From assembly GCA_022827345.1 (NCBI GenBank), contig JAJDTB010000073.1, forward strand, positions 62,001 through 126,000: a stretch of 64,000 bases of DNA, in the 5' to 3' direction. Under the pieces are notes generated by a model that was not told where the DNA came from, ran no database searches, and saw only the letters and a list, made by a program, of their open reading frames with translations. The stretch comes from Gemmatimonadota bacterium (GTDB lineage: Bacteria > Gemmatimonadota > Gemmatimonadetes > Longimicrobiales > Gaopeijiaceae). Made by a program: the position numbers and the translations under genes. Of the stretch, positions 1-13,373 are shown in pieces. Each line of letters opens with the position of its first letter. Within the stretch, counting starts at the first letter, position 1.

Positions 1-1721
1 GCGGGCAGCCTGAGACGCTCAAGTGTCCGCGCATACGCGTCAAGACGTAGACGAAGCCCTCCCCGGGATCCCTCCCAGCCGACCGAAAGCTGGGTGTTGC
101 GAGGAATGGGTTCCGAGTCGACGGGCACGAGCAGGTCGTACGCGAGGAAGCTCGCTCCCAGCGCTTCCTCGTTGCGCACGGAAGATAGTGCCTGATGGGA
201 CCGGGAGGCCGACAATCGCACATCCCACCACGAAGCCGCGTAGCTCATCTCGACAAAGGGCGAAACGGCGGTCGTCAATCCCTGGAAGTGATCGACGCGC
301 ACGCCCGTCAGCGCCGAAAGGCCTTTAGCAAGCCCCACGTTGGCGCTCGAATAGCCCGCGAACCGCCACCGGCGCTCCCGGAGGTCCAGAGGCGAGAAGA
401 AGTAGCCATCGTCCGCCTCGAAATCTTCGTCGAGATCGTATGCGTGATCGCCCGAGAAGCTCGTCGCCTGCGCACCGGTCGTGACCGTAGCACGGCCCAA
501 GTGCCACGTGAGCTTCAGGTCTGCGCGATCCTCGCTCATCGATCCGCTACCGGACAACAAGGTGTCGCTTGGCGGCTCGTAATCGCGCGGCACGCCGTTC
601 AGGTACGACGCGCGGCCCCCGCCCAACCCCAGCAGGTCGCTCGCGAATCGGCTGCGACCGATGGTCACATCTAGTATCCCGGTCGCGCCCAGCCGATCGC
701 GGTAGTGCATCGACAACGCCGCATTGCCCCACTGAAGCTCAAGCGTCTTGGCATCCCGGGAGTCGAAGTTCCGCAGCGCTTCGGAGTTGACGTACCCACT
801 CACGGAGAGGCGGCGGAGACCCCCGAAGTCCTTCGTAACCTTGGCGTGGCCATCCTGGAAGAAATAGGGCGCGTGCTGCTCGATCACCCCAGTCTCCTCC
901 AGCAGGCGGGTGATCCCGTCGATATAGGTGCGGCGCCCGTCGAGCAGGTAAGATACACTTTGTCCGATGGGTCCCTCCATTGAAAGCCGGGACGAGGCCA
1001 GTCCCAACGAACCCGCCACCCGCCGCCGGTCGCGGGCACCGTCCCGGGTGGCGATATCGATCGCGCCGGAGATCGATCCGACCTGTAGCGCCTCGGCACC
1101 CGAGCCCGCCAAGAGAGTCGCCCGCTCGACCACCTCCGCGTTAACCGCCGACAGGAACCCTCCGAGGTGGAAGGCGTTGAACAGCCGTACGCCGTCGAGC
1201 AGCACGGGAGTTCCTTCACTTGTCCCGCCACGGACGTAGGGGATGGAGGCGTAGTCGGAGGGTGCCGACGCGGCCGGCGAGATCGCGGTCGCCCTCAGTA
1301 CGTCCGTCTCAAGGATGGTTGGTAGCGTCCGCATCAGCGCCGAGTCCACGACGAAGGCGTCCCGCGACATCGAAAGCGGGTCGCCAGCACGACCACGGAC
1401 GTTCACTTCGACCCCTTCGAGTCTGATCGGGGCCGGTTGCAAAAGAACCCTGATGGGTGCAGCGGGAAGCTCGTCGTAGCTCCGCGTCCACGGCGCGTAA
1501 CCGAGGGCGCTCACCTCCACGCGGAACCCCCCGACTGCGCGAGTATCCGGTATGACGAACGCTCCGAAGCGGTCGGAGGTGCCTGCCATCACCTCGGCTT
1601 CCGCATCCTTGGCCATAACCGCGACGTGCGCAAACGCGACCGGCTCCAGGTCGACGCTGTCGCGGACGACGCCTGCGAGGGTGACCTGCTGGAGAGTCAC
1701 AAGCAGTAGTGCGCTGATCAC
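1..1721 (-). CDS. TonB-dependent receptor, N-terminal part (cut by window edge)
   Basis: Outer-membrane TonB-dependent receptor; about 573 codons stay open from the start to the left edge. GTG at 1721 is chosen because GGAAGG lies about 9 bases upstream. A short hydrophobic signal is followed by a carboxypeptidase-regulatory-like beta domain (to about residue 95). Next comes a plug domain with LLDGVRLFNAFHLGG near residue 172 and SISGAIDIATR shortly after, then barrel-type alternating strands. Such receptors import siderophores, vitamins, glycans or peptides; the substrate cannot be read here. It follows the lipoprotein gene by 72 bases on the same strand and is probably co-transcribed with it from the promoter carrying the triple operator at 3011-3066. 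Confidence 0.9.
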   Translation of the reverse strand, partial: MISALLLVTLQQVTLAGVVRDSVDLEPVAFAHVAVMAKDAEAEVMAGTSDRFGAFVIPDTRAVGGFRVEVSALGYAPWTRSYDELPAAPIRVLLQPAPIRLEGVEVNVRGRAGDPLSMSRDAFVVDSALMRTLPTILETDVLRATAISPAASAPSDYASIPYVRGGTSEGTPVLLDGVRLFNAFHLGGFLSAVNAEVVERATLLAGSGAEALQVGSISGAIDIATRDGARDRRRVAGSLGLASSRLSMEGPIGQSVSYLLDGRRTYIDGITRLLEETGVIEQHAPYFFQDGHAKVTKDFGGLRRLSVSGYVNSEALRNFDSRDAKTLELQWGNAALSMHYRDRLGATGILDVTIGRSRFASDLLGLGGGRASYLNGVPRDYEPPSDTLLSGSGSMSEDRADLKLTWHLGRATVTTGAQATSFSGDHAYDLDEDFEADDGYFFSPLDLRERRWRFAGYSSANVGLAKGLSALTGVRVDHFQGLTTAVSPFVEMSYAASWWDVRLSASRSHQALSSVRNEEALGASFLAYDLLVPVDSEPIPRNTQLSVGWEGSRGGLRLRLDAYARTLERLRLP

Positions 1722-1793: not shown

Positions 1794-2933
1794 CTACCAG
1801 GACAGGTCGACGACGATGCGGGCGAGGACGTAACTCCCCGGGCCTGTATGGTAGTCGAACGAGTCCCAGCCGAGGTCGTCATCGAACAGGATATCCGTTT
1901 CGACCGCGCTCACCTCAAATGTCGCCCCTCCCCGGGCGGGCGAAACGGGCAATATCTCATCCCCCACCGCGTAGCCCTTGAAGGGGTCGACCCCCTCGTA
2001 GCGGGCGGTCCCACTGATCCAGATGCCATCTGCGTTGGCGTATCCAACGGTGATCTCGACTTCCTCCGTTCCGATCTCGGTCGCTACGTTCAGGGCGAAC
2101 GCATCCAGCGTCGTCGGGGAGTTGGATACTGTGCCGCCACCGCCCCCTCCGGTACCGGGAGCATCGCAAGCGTAGCTCAGGGAATCGGCGCAGCCACCTT
2201 GCGCAAGCCCGGTGGCGCCCGTGCCAAATTCGGCTCTCAAGTAGTCCCGCAGTGCTTCGTCGGAATCGAAGCTGCCGAAGTCGACAGACTTCGCCTCCTC
2301 TTCCCCGGTCCTCAGCGTCCAGATCACTGCGATCTCGCCATCGTCCGGATCTTGAATAACCGCACCCGGCACGTCCGCTTGCCGACCGATTCGGGTTCCG
2401 ATTGTTTCCATCGGGCGTACGAGGAAGAGTGCATCATACCCGGCAAGTGCTTCGCTCACGACGATCTCACGACTCGCGCCCGAGGGTTCGTAGACGATGA
2501 GTTCGGGCAGTTCGGAGTCCCACATGCCTGCCACGCCGATTCGGGAGGTCCCCGTCCAGCCAAGGCGGTGTTCCCGAAGTGGGACGACCATCTCGATCTC
2601 CCCGAGTGCCTCGACTTGGGCGATGAAGTCGGAACTCGACATACCCAGCGCGTTCGCGCTCTCGCGAAGGAACGAGGTGCTTTCGCTCGCGCGGAGAAAA
2701 CCGGCGAGCATCAAGCGGTGCTCGACCCCTACGGACGCTCTCATGGCCTCCAGTACAGACATCCGCACATTCGCGGTCGCCATGGAATGCGCAATCGCGG
2801 CAGCCACGGTCGAGAGTTCGTCCTCGCTCTCACCGAGGGTTGGCGAGAACCGAGTCGTGTCGGATGGCGTTATGTCGTTGCAAGCCAACAACATCACAGC
2901 GGCAGAAAGCAGGGGAAGGCTCTCTTTTCTCAT
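1794..2933 (-). CDS. Exported lipoprotein of unknown function
   Basis: I do not recognise a family. The 379-residue product begins with a lipoprotein signal (MRKESLPLLSAAVMLLACND), so it is likely anchored in the outer membrane or periplasm. ATG at 2933 is preferred to the in-frame ATG at 3071 because AGGAG sits 8 bases upstream and the signal begins there. The middle is mixed alpha/beta. A GGCADSLSYACDAPG segment and a glycine run separate it from a beta-rich C-terminal domain of about 110 residues ending in LSW. The gene lies between a two-component system and a TonB receptor, and its promoter carries three phased GGGAWWTCCC boxes. A role as a surface partner of the receptor is inference. 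Confidence 0.8.
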   Translation of the reverse strand: MRKESLPLLSAAVMLLACNDITPSDTTRFSPTLGESEDELSTVAAAIAHSMATANVRMSVLEAMRASVGVEHRLMLAGFLRASESTSFLRESANALGMSSSDFIAQVEALGEIEMVVPLREHRLGWTGTSRIGVAGMWDSELPELIVYEPSGASREIVVSEALAGYDALFLVRPMETIGTRIGRQADVPGAVIQDPDDGEIAVIWTLRTGEEEAKSVDFGSFDSDEALRDYLRAEFGTGATGLAQGGCADSLSYACDAPGTGGGGGGTVSNSPTTLDAFALNVATEIGTEEVEITVGYANADGIWISGTARYEGVDPFKGYAVGDEILPVSPARGGATFEVSAVETDILFDDDLGWDSFDYHTGPGSYVLARIVVDLSW

Positions 2934-3010
2934 CGTTGCATCTCCTTTGGGACTGAGGGCTGAAGCGCCGATGCAACCAAGATGCGATGTTGTGGGTACA
3001 CCCCGGCAGC

Positions 3011-3066
3011 GGGAAATCCCTGTACCGGTGACGGGAAAACCACCGGCTTCACGACGGGAAAATCCC
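3011..3066 (-). promoter_or_regulatory. Triple phased operator (GGGAAATCCC-type boxes) upstream of the lipoprotein gene
   Basis: Three near-palindromic boxes lie at 3011-3020 (GGGAAATCCC), 3033-3042 (GGGAAAACCA, imperfect) and 3056-3066 (GGGAAAATCCC). They are spaced 22 and 23 bases apart, so they fall on one face of the helix. A conserved GGGG follows the proximal box at the same distance as in the second copy at 7097-7152. The adjacent NarL-type regulator (3344-3997) is the obvious candidate binder, by inference. The rest of 2934-3343 holds the lipoprotein leader and the inverted repeat at 3280-3335; no gene is seen there. Confidence 0.65.
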
Positions 3067-3279
3067 TCCATCGACGCTTAGGGCCTTCCGGCGGGTCGTG
3101 CTGATGCGCAATCGAATACCGCGGTCCCGCTCAGCCTTGGCGTCTGCCGCTGACGTGTCGATCCAGCTCCCGCCGGAACAATTCGCCGGGTAGTTGCGGG
3201 CAACCTCCTTGCCGTGATGCGCTGAGCCTCGTGACCCCTTGGAAGCCAGTACCGCCGGATCCGGATTCTCGTTCATGAA

Positions 3280-3335
3280 GGCCGCACCTGCCGACTTGGG
3301 AAGCCCCTCGACGATTCCAACCGCCAGGTGCGGCC
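3280..3335. other. Long inverted repeat downstream of the response regulator gene
   Basis: GGCCGCACCTG (3280-3290) and CAGGTGCGGCC (3325-3335) form a perfect 11-bp inverted repeat around 34 bases. It begins 9 bases after the stop of the response regulator on the minus strand. No T-run follows, so a plain intrinsic terminator is not certain. It may act as a transcript 3' structure or attenuator between the two-component system and the lipoprotein gene. Confidence 0.5.
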
Positions 3336-3343
3336 CGCAGCCC

Positions 3344-3997
3344 CTACCGCTCGCTGTTGGCCTCCAGGAGCCCGGCCCTGAGGGCAAAGCGCACGATGTC
3401 TCGCCGGGTGTGCAGACCCAGCTTCGTCTTGGCGCGGGCGAGGTAGCCCTCGACGGTCTTGGGACTCAGAAGCATCTCTTCCGCCGCCTCTCTGGCCGAA
3501 TAGCCGTTCGCGTACATCGCCACCGCGAGGCGCTCTCGCGCGGAAAGCACCTCGGGTCCCGGTTCCTCGTCAGAGGTGCCCTGTGCCCCTTGGCGCGCGA
3601 GCAGGGCCGCTGCGCGGCGCGTCAGAAAGGAGCGTCCGCGCATGACCGCTTCGATGGCGCCCATGAGGTCGGTGTCGGCGACGGACTTGTTCAGGAAGCC
3701 CGCGGCCCCGGCGTTGAGGACCGGCACGAGGAACTCGTCCTCGTCGTGAATCGTGAGTATCAAGACCTTCGTGTCGAAGCCGAGTGAGGTGATCCGGCGT
3801 GTCGCCTCGACCCCGCCCATCCCGGGCATCGCCAAGTCCATGATGATGATGTCGGGTTCCAGCATCCGTGCCTTGTCCACAGCTTCCTTCCCCGACGATG
3901 CTTCGCCCACGACGTCGATCCGCCCTGTCGATTCGAGCAGTGCCTTCAAACCGGCTCGCATGACGTTGTGGTCGTCGACCAGCAGTACCCTCACCAT
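3344..3997 (-). CDS. NarL/FixJ-family response regulator
   Basis: Cytoplasmic DNA-binding response regulator of 217 residues, the usual length. The receiver domain (1-120) has the acidic pair D8/D9, phospho-acceptor D54, T82 and K104. A LuxR/GerE helix-turn-helix fills about 150-212 (LSARERLAVAMYANGYS, then SPKTVEGYLARAKTKLG). It overlaps the histidine kinase stop by 7 bases (ATGGTGA), so the two are translationally coupled. The triple operator starts about 280 bases downstream on the same strand and a second copy lies at 7097-7152. Regulation of both by this protein is inferred. Confidence 0.93.
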   Translation of the reverse strand: MVRVLLVDDHNVMRAGLKALLESTGRIDVVGEASSGKEAVDKARMLEPDIIIMDLAMPGMGGVEATRRITSLGFDTKVLILTIHDEDEFLVPVLNAGAAGFLNKSVADTDLMGAIEAVMRGRSFLTRRAAALLARQGAQGTSDEEPGPEVLSARERLAVAMYANGYSAREAAEEMLLSPKTVEGYLARAKTKLGLHTRRDIVRFALRAGLLEANSER

Positions 3998-5040
3998 TGC
4001 TCGCGCTCCGGACCCACCATCGGCACTTCGGCCCGAACCGTGGTTCCCGACCCCGGCGATGTCTGTATGGTGAGGCTCCCCCCGACTGCTTCCGCTCTCT
4101 CACGCATCCCGACGAGGCCGACGCCGACGTGGCCATCTTCGAGTGCCACTCCGGGGTCGGACAACTCGAACCCGCATCCTTCGTCTCGGATCTCCGCGAA
4201 GATCATCCCGTCCGCCGATCTGAGGGTCACGGCAGCCTCGCTCACCCTTGCATGCGTCGCGGCGTTGGTCACGGCCTCCTGCACGATCCGGTACACGGCC
4301 AGGACCGTCAACGGATCCAATTCGTCGGCCACCCAGTCGAGGTTGACGCTGGCGCGGATCGTGACTCCGTGCACCTTCCGGGCATCGCGAAACAGGGTGG
4401 CGAGCGCGGAAACAAGCCCCTGTTGTTCGAGTTTCGGCGACCTGAGCCCGCGAATCATCCGCTTTACCCCTCGGATTGCGGTAAGGATCTCGTCGGCGAT
4501 CACTGCCCACGCACGTTCCCTCTTCTCCCGATCCGTTTCGTCCACCAAAAGCCTTCCCCTGATCTTGAACGCGACCAGGAACTGGAGGAACTCGTCATGC
4601 AGCTCGCGGGAAAGGTGCTTTCGCTCGTTCTCGGCCGCTTCCAGCTTCGTTCGGGAGAGCCACCGCATCCGCTTCCAAGCCGAGGTTTCACGGATGGTGC
4701 AGATCACGTGTTCCGGCCCCGATGCCAGTTCGCCGGGGCTCAGACTGATCTCCACCGGGAAGGTCGTGCCATCCTTGCGCAGAGCCTGTAACTCCACTCC
4801 CTGCCCCATCGGTCGCGCTCGCGGCGCTTCGGCCTGGCGCCGACGGTGCTGCCCGTGCCGACTGCGGACACCGGCAGGAACCAGCCGGTCCACGCCGGAG
4901 CCCTCGATCTCTTCGCGGCTCCATCCAAACATCGACGACGCCTGTCGGTTTAAGTCCCGGATGACGCCGTCGGAGTCCACGACGAGCATCGCGTCCGGCG
5001 AGGCCTCGAACACGGCCCTGTAGTCCCTATCGGTCAGCAA
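3991..5040 (-). CDS. PAS-domain sensor histidine kinase (HisKA_3 type)
   Basis: Cognate kinase of the response regulator. A PAS domain (about 5-120, with FEASPDAMLVVDSDGVI) precedes a HisKA_3 dimerisation helix whose RELHDE motif holds the phospho-acceptor His (about H148 from the chosen start). A HATPase_c domain follows, with ITNAATHA-like N-box residues and G-boxes near VGVGLVGMRERAE. No transmembrane segment is visible, so the sensor is cytoplasmic. TTG at 5040 is preferred because GGAGG lies 8 bases upstream and a promoter ends about 70 bases upstream; ATG at 5097 has no ribosome binding site. The signal sensed is unknown. Confidence 0.88.
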   Translation of the reverse strand: MLTDRDYRAVFEASPDAMLVVDSDGVIRDLNRQASSMFGWSREEIEGSGVDRLVPAGVRSRHGQHRRRQAEAPRARPMGQGVELQALRKDGTTFPVEISLSPGELASGPEHVICTIRETSAWKRMRWLSRTKLEAAENERKHLSRELHDEFLQFLVAFKIRGRLLVDETDREKRERAWAVIADEILTAIRGVKRMIRGLRSPKLEQQGLVSALATLFRDARKVHGVTIRASVNLDWVADELDPLTVLAVYRIVQEAVTNAATHARVSEAAVTLRSADGMIFAEIRDEGCGFELSDPGVALEDGHVGVGLVGMRERAEAVGGSLTIQTSPGSGTTVRAEVPMVGPEREQW

Positions 5041-5101
5041 TCCGGTTGCCTCCTTTCCTGCGTCCAAGCGGGTTGGTAACCCATCGCCAACAACCACGCC
5101 G

Positions 5102-5143
5102 GTGTCCGTTCAATCATACGGACACATGGCCGGAGAATGTCAA
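5102..5143 (-). promoter_or_regulatory. Promoter of the kinase-regulator operon with palindromic operator
   Basis: On the minus strand TTGACA (5138-5143) is followed after 19 bases by TATGAT (5113-5118). A perfect inverted repeat, GTGTCCGT (5102-5109) and ACGGACAC (5118-5125) with an 8-base spacer, overlaps the -10 region. Binding there would block or remodel the promoter, so autoregulation is plausible. Confidence 0.55.
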
Positions 5144-5302
5144 CGGGCGTCTGAACGCAAGATGTCATCAAGCCCGCCGTAGCCCGATCCGGGAGGTAGG
5201 AGTCGAAGGCGGCTTCGTCCAGGAGCCGGATCGTCCGGTCGGGGGTCGGCGAGGCAAGCGCTTTCGCCAACGCATCCTACGCGGATTACAGCGCCGTTCG
5301 CC

Positions 5303-5334
5303 GCCGCCGCACGACTCGCTCCGCGTGCGGCGGC
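5303..5334. terminator. GC-rich hairpin in a long intergenic region
   Basis: GCCGCCGCACG (5303-5313) and CGTGCGGCGGC (5324-5334) form a perfect 11-bp stem with a 10-base loop, followed by TTCCTT. It looks like an intrinsic terminator for plus-strand transcription, though no gene ends just before it. The rest of 5144-5628 shows no convincing gene; only the leader of the propeller gene is recognised. Confidence 0.4.
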
Positions 5335-5628
5335 TTCCTTCGGACTCGGGCTGGACGCAAGCCGCTCACTGTCGGAACCGAACTCCTTTCCTAGAACCCC
5401 TCCATGGCCCAATGTTCCGGATAAGGCTGCAACCGCCGAGCCAAGTCACTCGGGGAACGAGGCCGGCCTGTCAAGCCGGTCTTGCCCCCGGCAGGCCCTT
5501 TCGAGAAACTCCTCTGGGCCGTGGGGGAAAGCAGAGAGCGATGGCGCATCGTACCTGTTGGTTTCATTGTAGATGGCTTCGGGTGGGGTCTTGCGACGGA
5601 CGACCCAAACCAAGGAGGAGATGTCGGG

Positions 5629-6909
5629 ATGCTCTGGAAACCACGATTCGTTGCTATCGGGGGCACTTGTCTAGCCGCAGTGCTCGTGGTGGCGATGGGA
5701 ACCATCGTCCTTGAAGCTCAGGAGGTGGTAGACCTCCCCGGCGAGGATCGTCCCGTTTCGGGGGACTTTGAGCTCGTCTACCGCATCGGATCAGTTGCGG
5801 CGGAGGCCGAATGGGAGCAGTTCTCGTCCATCCGGGACCTGGGCTTCGATGCGGCTGGGAACCTCTACCTCATGGATGGTGGAGGCGTGGAGAGCGCCAC
5901 CCGCATCGTAGTGGTCGATCCTTCAGGCCAATACCTGCACGAATTCGGTCGCGCTGGCGAGGGTCCGGGCGAGTTCCGATCGGCGATGCAACTCGTGGTG
6001 TGGGCCGACGGACACACTCTAGTCGAGGACATGCTGCATCAGGCCCATCACGTCTTCGACGCCCGCGGCGAGTTCGAGCGGATGGTGAGGGAAGCGGGCG
6101 CGGACGCGGGTTTCGGCATCTCACGTCGCCCCGGCCTCCGACCGGTTCGGATCGGACAACACCATACGGTGATCGGTCGGAACGGTCGCTCGATCATCAG
6201 CGTTGACATGTCGTCGGAAGAGGTGACGGAGCGCACTTTGGTGGAACCATGGACGCCGCCGGGGCGAGAGGACCATGGTCTGAGGACCGGCGAAATCGAG
6301 GAACTGATCGACGAGGAGTGGGGATTCGAACCCGACGTTGTGTTTGACGTGCTCGCGTCGGGCGGGGTCGTGTTTTCGGATTCCTCGGCCTATGCGATCA
6401 AGATCAGCGATCCATCCGGCGAGGTATCGCATGTCCTCCGCCGACCCATACGGCCGATGCGAGTCACGGAGGCGATGAGAAGCGCGGAGCGTGAGCGCCG
6501 CCTCGAAGAGCAGCGGAACCGACGGGTCACCACCATGAGCGGGAGAGAACCGCCTCCGCAGGTCTTGGAGATGTTCAACCGGGCGCAGGCGGGCTACGCG
6601 GCGGCTGTCGAGAACATGCAGTTTTTCGCCGAAGTGCCGGTGGTCGCGGCCGTGCGCACCAGTTGGAGCGGGGTCTTGTGGATCGAACGCAGCGCGGATC
6701 CGGGGACGGAAGCGCCGGGTCCCATCGATGTAGTCGCGCCGCACTGGGAATACGTCGGCACGCTGCCATCAGGGCAACCTAGGATGCCGGACGCCTTCGG
6801 TCCGGGCGGACTGGTCGCTTTCGTCGAAACCGACGAGTTCGATGTTCCGGTCGTTACGGTAAGGCAAAGCCCGGCGGCGATCCGCAACTTTCGTAGACAT
6901 TCCCGATAA
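5629..6909 (+). CDS. 6-bladed beta-propeller protein, exported
   Basis: A 426-residue protein of the '6-bladed beta-propeller' family (NHL-like repeats). The N-terminus is a signal peptide or membrane anchor (LWKPRFVAIGG, then a hydrophobic run ending LEAQEVV). Blade signatures include GFDAAGNLYLMD and EFGRAGEGPGEFRSAMQL, the hallmark GxGPGEF turn. ATG at 5629 is chosen because AGGAGG lies 8 bases upstream and the signal starts there; the frame is open back to 5482. These proteins are abundant in Bacteroidota and Gemmatimonadota, and their ligand is unknown. Four members lie in this window, two of them broken. Confidence 0.87.
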   Translation: MLWKPRFVAIGGTCLAAVLVVAMGTIVLEAQEVVDLPGEDRPVSGDFELVYRIGSVAAEAEWEQFSSIRDLGFDAAGNLYLMDGGGVESATRIVVVDPSGQYLHEFGRAGEGPGEFRSAMQLVVWADGHTLVEDMLHQAHHVFDARGEFERMVREAGADAGFGISRRPGLRPVRIGQHHTVIGRNGRSIISVDMSSEEVTERTLVEPWTPPGREDHGLRTGEIEELIDEEWGFEPDVVFDVLASGGVVFSDSSAYAIKISDPSGEVSHVLRRPIRPMRVTEAMRSAERERRLEEQRNRRVTTMSGREPPPQVLEMFNRAQAGYAAAVENMQFFAEVPVVAAVRTSWSGVLWIERSADPGTEAPGPIDVVAPHWEYVGTLPSGQPRMPDAFGPGGLVAFVETDEFDVPVVTVRQSPAAIRNFRRHSR

Positions 6910-7096
6910 GCACCCCAACCATTCGCAACTCCAGCGAGCCATTTGGCGGTCGGTTCTAGGGTGGCGAAACCGCAGGACTGAAGGTCCGCGTGCCTCCAGT
7001 TTCGGCAAAACAAGCTTCGGGGCCCCGGCGCTACACAGTGCGATTGGGCCGGGGTATCGGGGTCCCAGAGAAGGGCGTTGCCCTGATGACTTTGGG

Positions 7097-7183
7097 GGGA
7101 TTTCCCGGGGTGGCGTCAGGGGATTTCCCCCTCATGAATTCAGGGTTTTCCCTCTCTTGGGGATACCACGCGTTGTCTATGAT
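7097..7183 (+). promoter_or_regulatory. Second triple phased operator with promoter
   Basis: Boxes GGGATTTCCC (7097-7106), GGGATTTCCC (7120-7129) and GGGTTTTCCC (7143-7152) recur at exactly 23-base intervals. They stand just upstream of a likely promoter (TTGGGG at 7157-7162, TATGAT at 7178-7183) for the lipoprotein gene at 7298. The layout copies the one at 3011-3066, including a GGGG six bases after the proximal box. Boxes upstream of -35 suggest activation. In 6910-7096 nothing else is recognised. Confidence 0.65.
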
Positions 7184-7297
7184 TGGAGTGCGTTCGTCTC
7201 CTCGGCCCCCGAGAGGCACGAAACGGGAAGGAAGAGATTGACGCAAAAACCGTTTTTAGAGGCGCAACCCCAAGTTGCCGAAACGAGGAGGAATCCA

Positions 7298-7753
7298 ATG
7301 AGCAAGAATCAGAACGGCGCAACCGCGATCTTGGTCGCGTCTGCTGTCGCCCTGCTGTCCGCCGGATGCGATGACGGGGGGTTTCTGGCCCCGCCGGGTG
7401 ATCCGTACAATGCGTTGGTCGTGGCGGCGCTGGACCCGGAGTCCCCGGAGCGGTGGGAGGCGGAGTACAACCGTTTGCTCGCCGAGAACCCCGATGTCCT
7501 GCAACTTCACCGCTCCTGGTTCGATGAGAACGAAGAGCCTTGGTTCGACGAGAACGAGGGACCCTCGGAGTTCTTCCGGACATGGGAACCGCCCGCCCGG
7601 CGTTCACGTTGCGGGAATGGGCGGGTGTCGGAGGATGCAATCGCCGCCATCATAGGGGCAATACGAGCGCGCACGGAAGGGCGCACGGCTCCGCCCGAGC
7701 AGCTTGCCGGGGCACTCGACGAGTACTTTGGCGTTTTCGGACTAGGGCTATGA
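7298..7753 (+). CDS. Small exported lipoprotein, unknown function
   Basis: A 151-residue product with a lipoprotein signal (MSKNQNGATAILVASAVALL, then SAGC). No known domain is recognised; the mature part is short, acidic and contains a repeated WFDENE motif (HRSWFDENEEPWFDENEGPS). ATG at 7298 has GAGGAGG upstream; the in-frame ATG at 7157 falls in the promoter. Its stop overlaps the next gene (ATGA), so the two are coupled. It is under the same triple operator as the lipoprotein at 1794-2933, which suggests a shared regulon controlled by the nearby two-component system. Confidence 0.75.
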   Translation: MSKNQNGATAILVASAVALLSAGCDDGGFLAPPGDPYNALVVAALDPESPERWEAEYNRLLAENPDVLQLHRSWFDENEEPWFDENEGPSEFFRTWEPPARRSRCGNGRVSEDAIAAIIGAIRARTEGRTAPPEQLAGALDEYFGVFGLGL

Positions 7754-8445
7754 CGATGAACCGAAGAATACGCCTGCTTTGGCTCGGCATCCCCCTCGCT
7801 CTGGTTCTCATTCCCGCGCTGGCACGCCCGCAGACATCGTCATCGCTTCTGGCTAGGTGGACAGGTCTTGGCCCTGCGCCGGTTTCCACTTGGAAGCGGG
7901 ACATCGGGAACTCAGCTTACTGGCTGGCCGCCCATCCCACGGACTCGACGATATCGTGCGGGAATGTGAAGACGGAGGTGATGCGAGCGCTGAACGGCGG
8001 CGACACTTGGTACGTCGGGGTGGACAAGGTGAGCAACCGGCTGGGAACCCATTACACTCCCCAGCATGAAGTTGTGGTGGACTCCTCCTTGTCCATCGAT
8101 CTGCAGTTGGGGACCGTCATTCACGAAGCCATGCACCATGCGGGCTACGGCAACAGCGGGCCCGATAACAATGACGACTTCATCTCCTGCTTCACGCAGG
8201 GGCGGGAGGACGGGAAAGAGGACGACGAAGACGGGAACGACGGAAATAGCAGCGGCGGTGGCGGCGGCAGCCCCAGAATCGTCAGCAAGGTACCGCACGG
8301 AAACATCCCCAGCGTTTGGGTCATTGTGTATGTTCCCAGATCCTCCAGCGGCAGCGCCGAACTCGGCGAGATCACGGTCGTTTGCGATTACGACGACGAA
8401 ACTTCCTGGCCCGACTGCCCTGACGCCGAAGGAAAGTCGAACTAG
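7750..8445 (+). CDS. Secreted HExxH protein, putative zinc metalloprotease
   Basis: A 231-residue product with a signal peptide (MTMNRRIRLLWLGIPLALVL, then IPALARPQ). The motif VIHEAMHHAGYG near residue 124 is a zincin-type HExxH with a further His; the third ligand cannot be assigned with confidence. A low-complexity acidic and glycine stretch (EDGKEDDEDGNDGN, then GGGGG) separates it from a short C-terminal beta domain. It overlaps the upstream lipoprotein by four bases. The family is not recognised beyond the motif, so peptidase activity is inference. Confidence 0.7.
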   Translation: MTMNRRIRLLWLGIPLALVLIPALARPQTSSSLLARWTGLGPAPVSTWKRDIGNSAYWLAAHPTDSTISCGNVKTEVMRALNGGDTWYVGVDKVSNRLGTHYTPQHEVVVDSSLSIDLQLGTVIHEAMHHAGYGNSGPDNNDDFISCFTQGREDGKEDDEDGNDGNSSGGGGGSPRIVSKVPHGNIPSVWVIVYVPRSSSGSAELGEITVVCDYDDETSWPDCPDAEGKSN

Positions 8446-12209: not shown

Positions 12210-13373
12210 ATGATGGCACGCACGAAACGAAGTCGGCGCAGTTACGGCGCCGGCGAATGGGGCCGGAATCGGGTCCGGGTGTTTCCCGATCCGAAAACCG
12301 GCCTGTACCAAGTGGAGTGGCGCGACAACGGGCGAAGGCTCACCCGGTCGCTGGGGCACCGCGAGTGGGTGAGGGCGAAGCGGGAGGCGGACGAATTCGC
12401 CGCCGGGTTCGCGACGCTTCGGCCCAATGGCAAGGCGGAGGCCGAGCCCGGGCCGCTCACCTTGGGACGGCTTCTTGACATGTACGGGGAAGAGGTGACG
12501 CCGACGAAGGCGGAGTCCTCTCAGCGGTCCGACCGGGCCGCGACGAGGATGTTCCTCCAGTTCTTCGGGCGGGACCGCAAGCCCTCCACCCTGTCCCAGC
12601 GGGATTGGGACCGGTTCATCCGGGCGCGGCGCGCGGGCAGGATCGGAGCGAGCGGCAAGCCGGTATCCGACGCGACGCTCGAACACGACCTGAAGTTCCT
12701 GATCGCCGTGTTCAACTGGGCCGCGAGGTCGAAGAACGAGCGAGGCCGCCTGCTTCTCGACAGGAACCCGTTGAAGGGCCTGAAGATGCCCACGGAGAAG
12801 AACCCCAGGCGGGTGGTGTTGTCCGAGGAGGAATACCAGGCACTTCTCGGAGTGTCCCGCCGGGTTGATTGGCGCTTTCACGTTGCGCTCGTTCTCGCGC
12901 ACGAAACCGGACACCGGATCGGCGCCATCCGTCACCTGCGATGGACGGACATCGACCTTGAAGCCGGGGTCATCCGGTGGAGAGCGGAGCACGAGAAGAC
13001 CGGCTACGAACACCGGACGCCGGCCACCCCCGAGGCGTTGGCCGTCCTTGAGGAGGCGCGGAGGCGGAACCCCGGGATCGGGGACATTCCGCTGCTGCCC
13101 GCACCGAGGGATCCGTCGCGGTGCGCGGGCCGGACGCTCGTGCGATCGTGGTGGAACCGAGCCCAGAAGCTCGCCGCGCTCGAACCGAAGCGCGGGCGAG
13201 GCTGGCACTCGCTGAGGCGCAAGTTTGCTTCGGATCTCATGGACCAGCCGCTCAAGGTGCTCTGCGAGTTGGGGGGTTGGAAGACCGCCAAGACGGTGCT
13301 CCAGTGCTATCAGCGAGCCGACGAAGGACAGCTTCGGAAGGCACTGGAAGCCCGCCGGAGACCCGGCGGCTGA
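12210..13373 (+). CDS. Tyrosine recombinase / integrase
   Basis: A 387-residue phage-type integrase. The N-terminal arm-binding part (1-80) is followed by a SAM-like core-binding domain (about 85-190) and a catalytic domain with R236 (ETGHRIGAIRHLRW), K263 (HEKTGYEH), H333 and R336 (WHSLRRKF), W357 (GGWKTA) and nucleophile Y367 (CYQRAD). All catalytic positions are present. The start is the ATG-ATG pair at 12210 behind AAGGAA. Its 3' end overlaps, tail to tail, the last 64 bases of a symporter gene whose C-terminus looks replaced, so the element probably integrated there. Confidence 0.92.
   Translation: MMARTKRSRRSYGAGEWGRNRVRVFPDPKTGLYQVEWRDNGRRLTRSLGHREWVRAKREADEFAAGFATLRPNGKAEAEPGPLTLGRLLDMYGEEVTPTKAESSQRSDRAATRMFLQFFGRDRKPSTLSQRDWDRFIRARRAGRIGASGKPVSDATLEHDLKFLIAVFNWAARSKNERGRLLLDRNPLKGLKMPTEKNPRRVVLSEEEYQALLGVSRRVDWRFHVALVLAHETGHRIGAIRHLRWTDIDLEAGVIRWRAEHEKTGYEHRTPATPEALAVLEEARRRNPGIGDIPLLPAPRDPSRCAGRTLVRSWWNRAQKLAALEPKRGRGWHSLRRKFASDLMDQPLKVLCELGGWKTAKTVLQCYQRADEGQLRKALEARRRPGG

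Follow-up and report, generated by a model that had tools for sequence, protein, structure and literature searches.

Two promoters of a Gemmatimonadota genome carry three evenly spaced boxes each, and a two-component system lies between them, which raises the question of what reads the boxes and what the arrangement controls. Both promoters are in the window, the whole stretch of 64,000 nucleotides analyzed here (contig JAJDTB010000073.1, positions 62,001 to 126,000). We computed the operator, its recurrence in related genomes, its place before genes, the enrichment of exported products behind it, and its linkage to one clade of regulators.

Two triple-box promoters flank a two-component system

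Reading toward the gene, the minus-strand promoter presents GGGATTTTCCC (3066-3056), TGGTTTTCCC (3042-3033), and GGGATTTCCC (3020-3011) in steps of 23 and 22 bp; on the plus strand, GGGATTTCCC (7097-7106), GGGATTTCCC (7120-7129), and GGGTTTTCCC (7143-7152) follow one another in two steps of 23 bp. Both operators (3011-3066, minus, and 7097-7152, plus) were read directly from the sequence and are also matched by the family model described below, at 2973-3067 with 53.3 bits and at 7095-7192 with 67.8 bits. An earlier note on this DNA had placed boxes at 3011, 3033, 3056, 7097, 7120, and 7143, with a common core GGGAWWTCCC, a spacing of 22-23 bp, and a GGGG at equal distance past the proximal box. 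All six boxes are present; in the window, the spacing holds for both promoters and the GGGG lies 6 bases past the proximal box in each, and the exact core is found in three of the six boxes (3011, 7097, and 7120). Putative -10 elements are CATCTT (2979-2984, minus strand), about 26 nt beyond the proximal box, where promoters of the family have their conserved downstream element, and TATGAT (7178-7183, plus strand), at the conserved position 25 nt beyond the proximal box.

The gene called behind the minus operator encodes a 379-aa lipoprotein (1794-2933, minus strand) that has no Pfam or NCBIfam match; its structure model was too poor (mean pLDDT 35.5), and we dropped it as a source of functional clues. 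A TonB-receptor-like protein (3-1721, minus strand) extends past the start of the window, and a related protein in locus L100 has CarboxypepD_reg and Plug domains. Behind the plus operator, the gene call gives a 151-aa lipoprotein (7298-7753, plus strand), overlapped by the gene of a 230-aa exported protein (7753-8445, plus strand), the translation of which contains HEAMHH, an HExxH-type motif; Pfam and NCBIfam scans of the 230-aa protein gave no match, and it is possibly a secreted metalloprotease. The expectation of small lipoproteins behind both promoters is correct as to lipoproteins, and as to size for the 151-aa product, but the 379-aa product is not small. A three-box operator also precedes the ortholog of the 379-aa lipoprotein in L079/L096 (one contig, judging by length) and the orthologs of the 151-aa protein in L108 and L100, in agreement with the earlier prediction that the triple would stand upstream of orthologous genes.

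Between the promoters, as the earlier note had it, lie a NarL-type regulator and its kinase. The regulator (3344-3997, minus strand), the proposed operator binder, consists of a receiver and a LuxR-type HTH and belongs to the NarL/FixJ type by PF00072 (98.3 bits) and PF00196 (49 bits), both above cut-off. Its partner, the gene of which overlaps the regulator gene (3991-5097, minus strand; the start may be 5040), is a histidine kinase of the HisKA_3 class, partners of NarL-type regulators, with PAS, HisKA_3, and HATPase_c domains (PF00989, PF07730, and PF02518, the latter two above cut-off). There is no operator in front of these two genes (3344-5097). An exported protein resembling a 6-bladed beta-propeller (5629-6909, plus strand) likewise has no operator of its own; it scores 22.2 bits against DUF5128, and a protein of L065 scores 21.4, both below the curated cut-off of 22.9. 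Propeller-like genes recur beside operators elsewhere.

The three-box arrangement defines an operator family

Taken singly, the boxes are as frequent in the window as chance predicts (90 matches with up to two mismatches, 89.9 expected). The spaced pair TTTCCCN{15,18}TTTCCC has nine occurrences in the 4.79-Mb genome, of which four fall in the window, and its backwards control has none; outside the window, the same genome has two more full triples, on contigs C2 and C69. Pairs at C2:22251, C64:79329, and C67:53189 were not counted as operators, the third box being missing. Searching the window's genome and its relatives with a gapped three-box pattern, we found 17 places in 9 of 98 genomes (backwards pattern, 3), and all nine genomes belong to the window's genus (9 of 23, against 0 of 75 others). 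The triple in L017 (G013:C54) is a different repeat, CGGGAACTTTTTCCC, present in four copies before a sigma-factor-like gene, and was set aside; the CGGGAACTTTTTCCC-like repeats form a different phased array at similar spacing.

We built a sequence-only model from 16 aligned promoters (16 of the 17 pattern places, L017 being left out). Of the 23 genomes of the window's genus, 22 have a match to it at E 0.1 or better, with at least 150 operator places between them. At E 0.001 or better the model matches in at least 27 of 116 genomes of the family and at least 39 of 395 of the phylum, both of which are lower bounds because the stricter filters applied above 40 genomes lose weak matches. Of the 39 genomes, 29 are from the window's family and 7 from a single genus (g58) in another family; the other 3, placed elsewhere, have weak matches (2e-5 to 4e-4). 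Within the window's genus, G001 has neither an operator nor a regulator of the clade defined below; G008 lacks a clade regulator and has only a match at 0.012, and the single-contig genome G021 has an operator at 2e-11 and no clade regulator.

Among 119 distinct matches in the loci that we fetched, our own scoring rule finds three boxes in 107. The spacing of 22-23 bp seen in the window is not fixed in the family: the distal step varies from 21 to 27 bp (23-25 in 89 of 107), and the proximal step is 22-23 bp in 92 of 107. Symmetry of the boxes is limited to the outer GGG and CCC, with a center that is mostly TTTT or ATTT, and after the proximal box the sequence usually continues with TCT. We rejected the strict palindrome GGGAWWTCCC, since the family consensus is asymmetric in its center and two exact copies at the given spacing occur at only one place in the genome. 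The GGGG past the proximal box is weakly conserved across the 107 promoters (G at about 40-50% there). An element conserved roughly as TTGCCGATATTGGAG lies about 25 bases past the proximal box; its GATATT part would fall at the -10 position, and the proximal box would abut the -35 position, which is poor in sequence. The spacers diverge, whereas boxes, spacing, and downstream element are kept.

Operators precede genes for exported proteins

Placement of the operators is far from random. A called gene start lies within 300 bp downstream on the same strand for 88 of the 107, compared with 12.6% at 4000 random positions, and a single operator lies inside a gene, compared with 63% at random. Using our own codon-usage gene caller, we assigned a first gene within 400 bp to 91 of the 107 operators and none to 16. 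Of the 91 first genes, 67 have a product that looks exported; among the remaining genes of these loci the figure is 185 of 528 (p = 9e-12). The signal-peptide calls were made by a simple rule of our own, not a trained predictor, and three of the 67 are kinases and false positives.

The 91 first genes are spread over many families, among them 52-aa lipoproteins, Cys-rich secreted peptides, lipoproteins of 170-210 aa, an SLT and LysM enzyme, a TonB-receptor-like protein, and propeller-like proteins; 2 of the 10 scanned representatives scored above Pfam cut-offs. A further family of 84 aa without a signal peptide recurs behind operators; its structure model is usable (mean pLDDT 80.6), but a search of the PDB with it returned nothing at E 0.001 or better. 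In 4 of the 91 cases (L106, L118, L123, and L124), the operator is followed first by the kinase gene, suggesting that some pairs are probably autoregulated.

Two sets of short products share sequence features. The 52-aa lipoproteins of L063, L064, and L065 are almost identical in their signal sequences and end alike (in DEVVKR or DEVDER, for example); all have an operator of their own and stand in tandem next to kinase and regulator genes. The other set consists of peptides 47-94 aa long (L058:1645-1788, L076:2751-2987, L107:4546-4830, and L068:5405-5635), most of which have a signal sequence; they share the C-terminal end L-R-R-S/A-G-L-I, and three are encoded by the first gene behind an operator. 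These peptides could be signaling peptides.

The operator is linked to one clade of NarL-type regulators

In the window's genus, 51 relatives of the window regulator (itself included) have at least 59% identity to it and 19 have at most 48%, with none between. Among the matches listed, an operator lies no more than 3 kb from at least 33 of these 51 clade members (0.7 expected) and no more than 5 kb from at least 40, against at least 2 of the 19 other NarL-type regulators at either distance, which bears out the earlier claim that the triple is tied to this regulator and not scattered. Without the training operators (17 listed places dropped), the clade counts are still at least 31 and at least 38 of 51. 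Named loci centered on a regulator gave the same picture: at E 0.1 or better, 48 of 55 clade loci carry an operator, whereas none of the 31 controls does (23 other NarL-type regulators, 6 relatives from other genera, and 2 intermediates); several of the seven clade loci without a match are truncated. Across the 116 genomes of the family, operator and clade regulator occur together in 23, the regulator alone in none, the operator alone in 4 (G021, G148, G151, and, weakly, G028; 4 of 27 operator-positive genomes), and neither in 89 (p = 2e-20, a statistic that ignores kinship). We also repeated this test leaving out G153.

Most genomes have several paralogous regulators, up to six in G003. In an alignment of 78 rows, which does not include every locus, Glu183-Gly184 of the recognition helix are found in all 53 clade rows and in 4 and 3, respectively, of the remaining 25. 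The helix of the window regulator reads KTVEGY, and paralogs on contigs C64 and C75 of the same genome have the same helix and would thus be expected to read the same boxes. Six relatives from other genera have KTVDTY, with an operator match at none of the six loci. In a maximum-likelihood tree of 59 rows, the clade (100/100) stands apart from the other-genus relatives and two distant rows; sequences of a second family (Candidatus Palauibacter, L139 and L114, with L111) and of genus g12 fall inside groups of the window's genus, as transfer or shared ancestry of several paralogs would produce. The co-occurrence and the helix change are not independent in phylogenetic terms, and few events may lie behind them.

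Genomic context and hosts

Relaxase and MobC genes lie near three operators of the window's own genome (L011, L012, and L071), with a VirD4-like gene in L012, and a tyrosine recombinase is common to L011, L012, L072, L081, and the window (12213-13361). Some operators may travel in mobilizable islands. G153, the regulator of which is 100% identical, was considered as evidence of inter-genus transfer and rejected: its contig is the window's own DNA, at 99.85-100% over more than 8.6 kb, and so could be a binning artifact. Two contigs of that genome, which is placed in another genus (L093 and L131, JAJEBS01), are 99.85-100% identical to DNA of the window's genome and are likely the result of co-binning.

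The named loci with a clade regulator come almost only from Gemmatimonadota MAGs, including Candidatus Palauibacter, and their sponge origin is our reading of isolate names and literature, not a record-by-record result. Clade regulators and operators are also present in L118 and L138, two records titled Gammaproteobacteria; L138 agrees in its coordinates with G144:C67 of the window's family, so its title is probably wrong. Among the papers listed by a literature search, judged by titles and abstract openings, none describes this operator or circuit. The main text of the Palauibacterales genome paper (PMC10469786) does not mention a two-component system, response regulator, histidine kinase, promoter, or regulon.

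A proposed circuit for surface proteins

We estimate a probability of roughly three in four that the three boxes are the operator of the NarL-type response regulator, which together with its paired PAS kinase would activate a dispersed regulon of surface and secreted proteins. From the sequence data we infer binding, phosphorylation, activation rather than repression, sharing between paralogs, and the nature of the signal. The PAS kinase (3991-5097) would phosphorylate the regulator (3344-3997), one paralog of several, on a signal that is probably internal, since by eye the kinase has no obvious membrane span. Regulator dimers would line up on the three boxes, with the nearest box up against the -35 position, and the bound regulator would switch on the weak promoters of lipoproteins and other exported proteins; it is the promoter geometry alone that points to activation. 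In most genomes, several paralogous kinase/regulator pairs would share one operator, which would therefore mark a dispersed surface- and secreted-protein regulon in sponge-associated Gemmatimonadota. The small surface-protein regulon first suggested from two promoters is supported by recurrence, exported products, and linkage, but the circuit is much larger than those two.

Another DNA-binding protein, either a different regulator or an alternative sigma factor, might read the boxes, with the two-component genes as island neighbors or targets. We regard this as improbable but deserving of some weight: G021, G148, and G151 carry operators without a clade regulator, the kinase gene is sometimes first behind an operator and so can be a target, and 80 of the 150 operators among the matches listed are on contigs, many of them short, that have no clade member. 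Against it, none of the 23 regulator-positive genomes of the family lacks an operator, the linkage is specific to the clade (neither the other NarL-type regulators nor the 31 control loci show it), the clade-specific residues fall in the recognition helix, and the two-component genes of the window have no operator in front of them.

That the boxes are mainly a repressor site, through which the regulator shuts off surface genes under some condition, strikes us as quite unlikely. The geometry alone is compatible with such a site, and boxes arrayed upstream can also act by bending the DNA or obstructing RNA polymerase, but the boxes stand farther upstream than the -35 and -10 positions, which they do not cover, and the -35 is weak, as is expected of activator-dependent promoters. 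We give hardly any credence to copied repeat DNA without regulatory meaning, whether a mobile repeat or a recent duplication carrying a promoter: several operators do sit in islands with mobilization genes and some are near-copies (L063:6701 and L063:12718, for example, score alike), yet the spacers diverge while the other features persist, the first genes belong to many families, and the placement before gene starts is strongly non-random.

We favor the activated regulon, and a wider version of it can be offered tentatively, as a possibility that we would not bet on: a modular, plug-in surface regulon in which the operator is a common address, mobile islands add genes for exported proteins, and several paralogous PAS kinase/regulator pairs read the address. 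Such a regulon would have spread between families of sponge-associated Gemmatimonadota and would connect different internal signals to one cell surface that can change. A defined operator offers a direct route to listing candidate host- or neighbor-facing proteins (lipoproteins, Cys-rich peptides, propellers, the SLT/LysM enzyme, and TonB receptors) in bacteria known mostly from metagenomes, and it raises the testable question of how up to six paralogous regulators in one genome (G003) share one operator. The triple operator probably marks a control circuit for surface proteins of sponge-associated bacteria that is so far undescribed.

Comparison with known systems

NarL-type regulators of other genera in the same family are the nearest outgroup of the clade (49-56% identity). 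They differ in having KTVDTY in place of KTVEGY, in the absence of a nearby operator match at the six examined, and in being present, as a rule, in one copy per genome. Among NCBIfam models, UvrY/SirA/GacA (NF007018) scores best for the window regulator and matches it over its full length, but at 173.4 bits against a cut-off of 280 the regulator is not a member. GacA-type regulators have small RNAs as targets, whereas the targets here are protein genes.

The box of DevR/DosR, a regulator of Mycobacterium tuberculosis, has GGG and CCC arms. As described in two reports, DevR/DosR belongs to the NarL subfamily, binds cooperatively to two or more close boxes upstream of its target promoters, the nearest overlapping the -35, and is autoregulated (PMC3029386, PMC3338549). 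The present system resembles it in pairing a NarL-type regulator, as putative binder, with three adjacent boxes in 107 of 119 matches, the nearest at the -35 position. By that likeness we propose that cooperative binding leads to activation; the kinase-first loci fit autoregulation. The two differ in box and spacing, in the kinase, which here has PAS and HisKA_3 domains and no GAF among its Pfam matches, and in the several paralogous pairs per genome and the surface and secreted proteins that are the targets here. The window regulator does not appear to be a DosR ortholog: the best 25 of its 107 NCBIfam matches include no DosR-like family, and the sensor is of the PAS type without a GAF match. 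We judge the operator and its putative regulon to be new, and the type of circuit that they suggest, a multi-box, NarL-type two-component activator, to be a known one.
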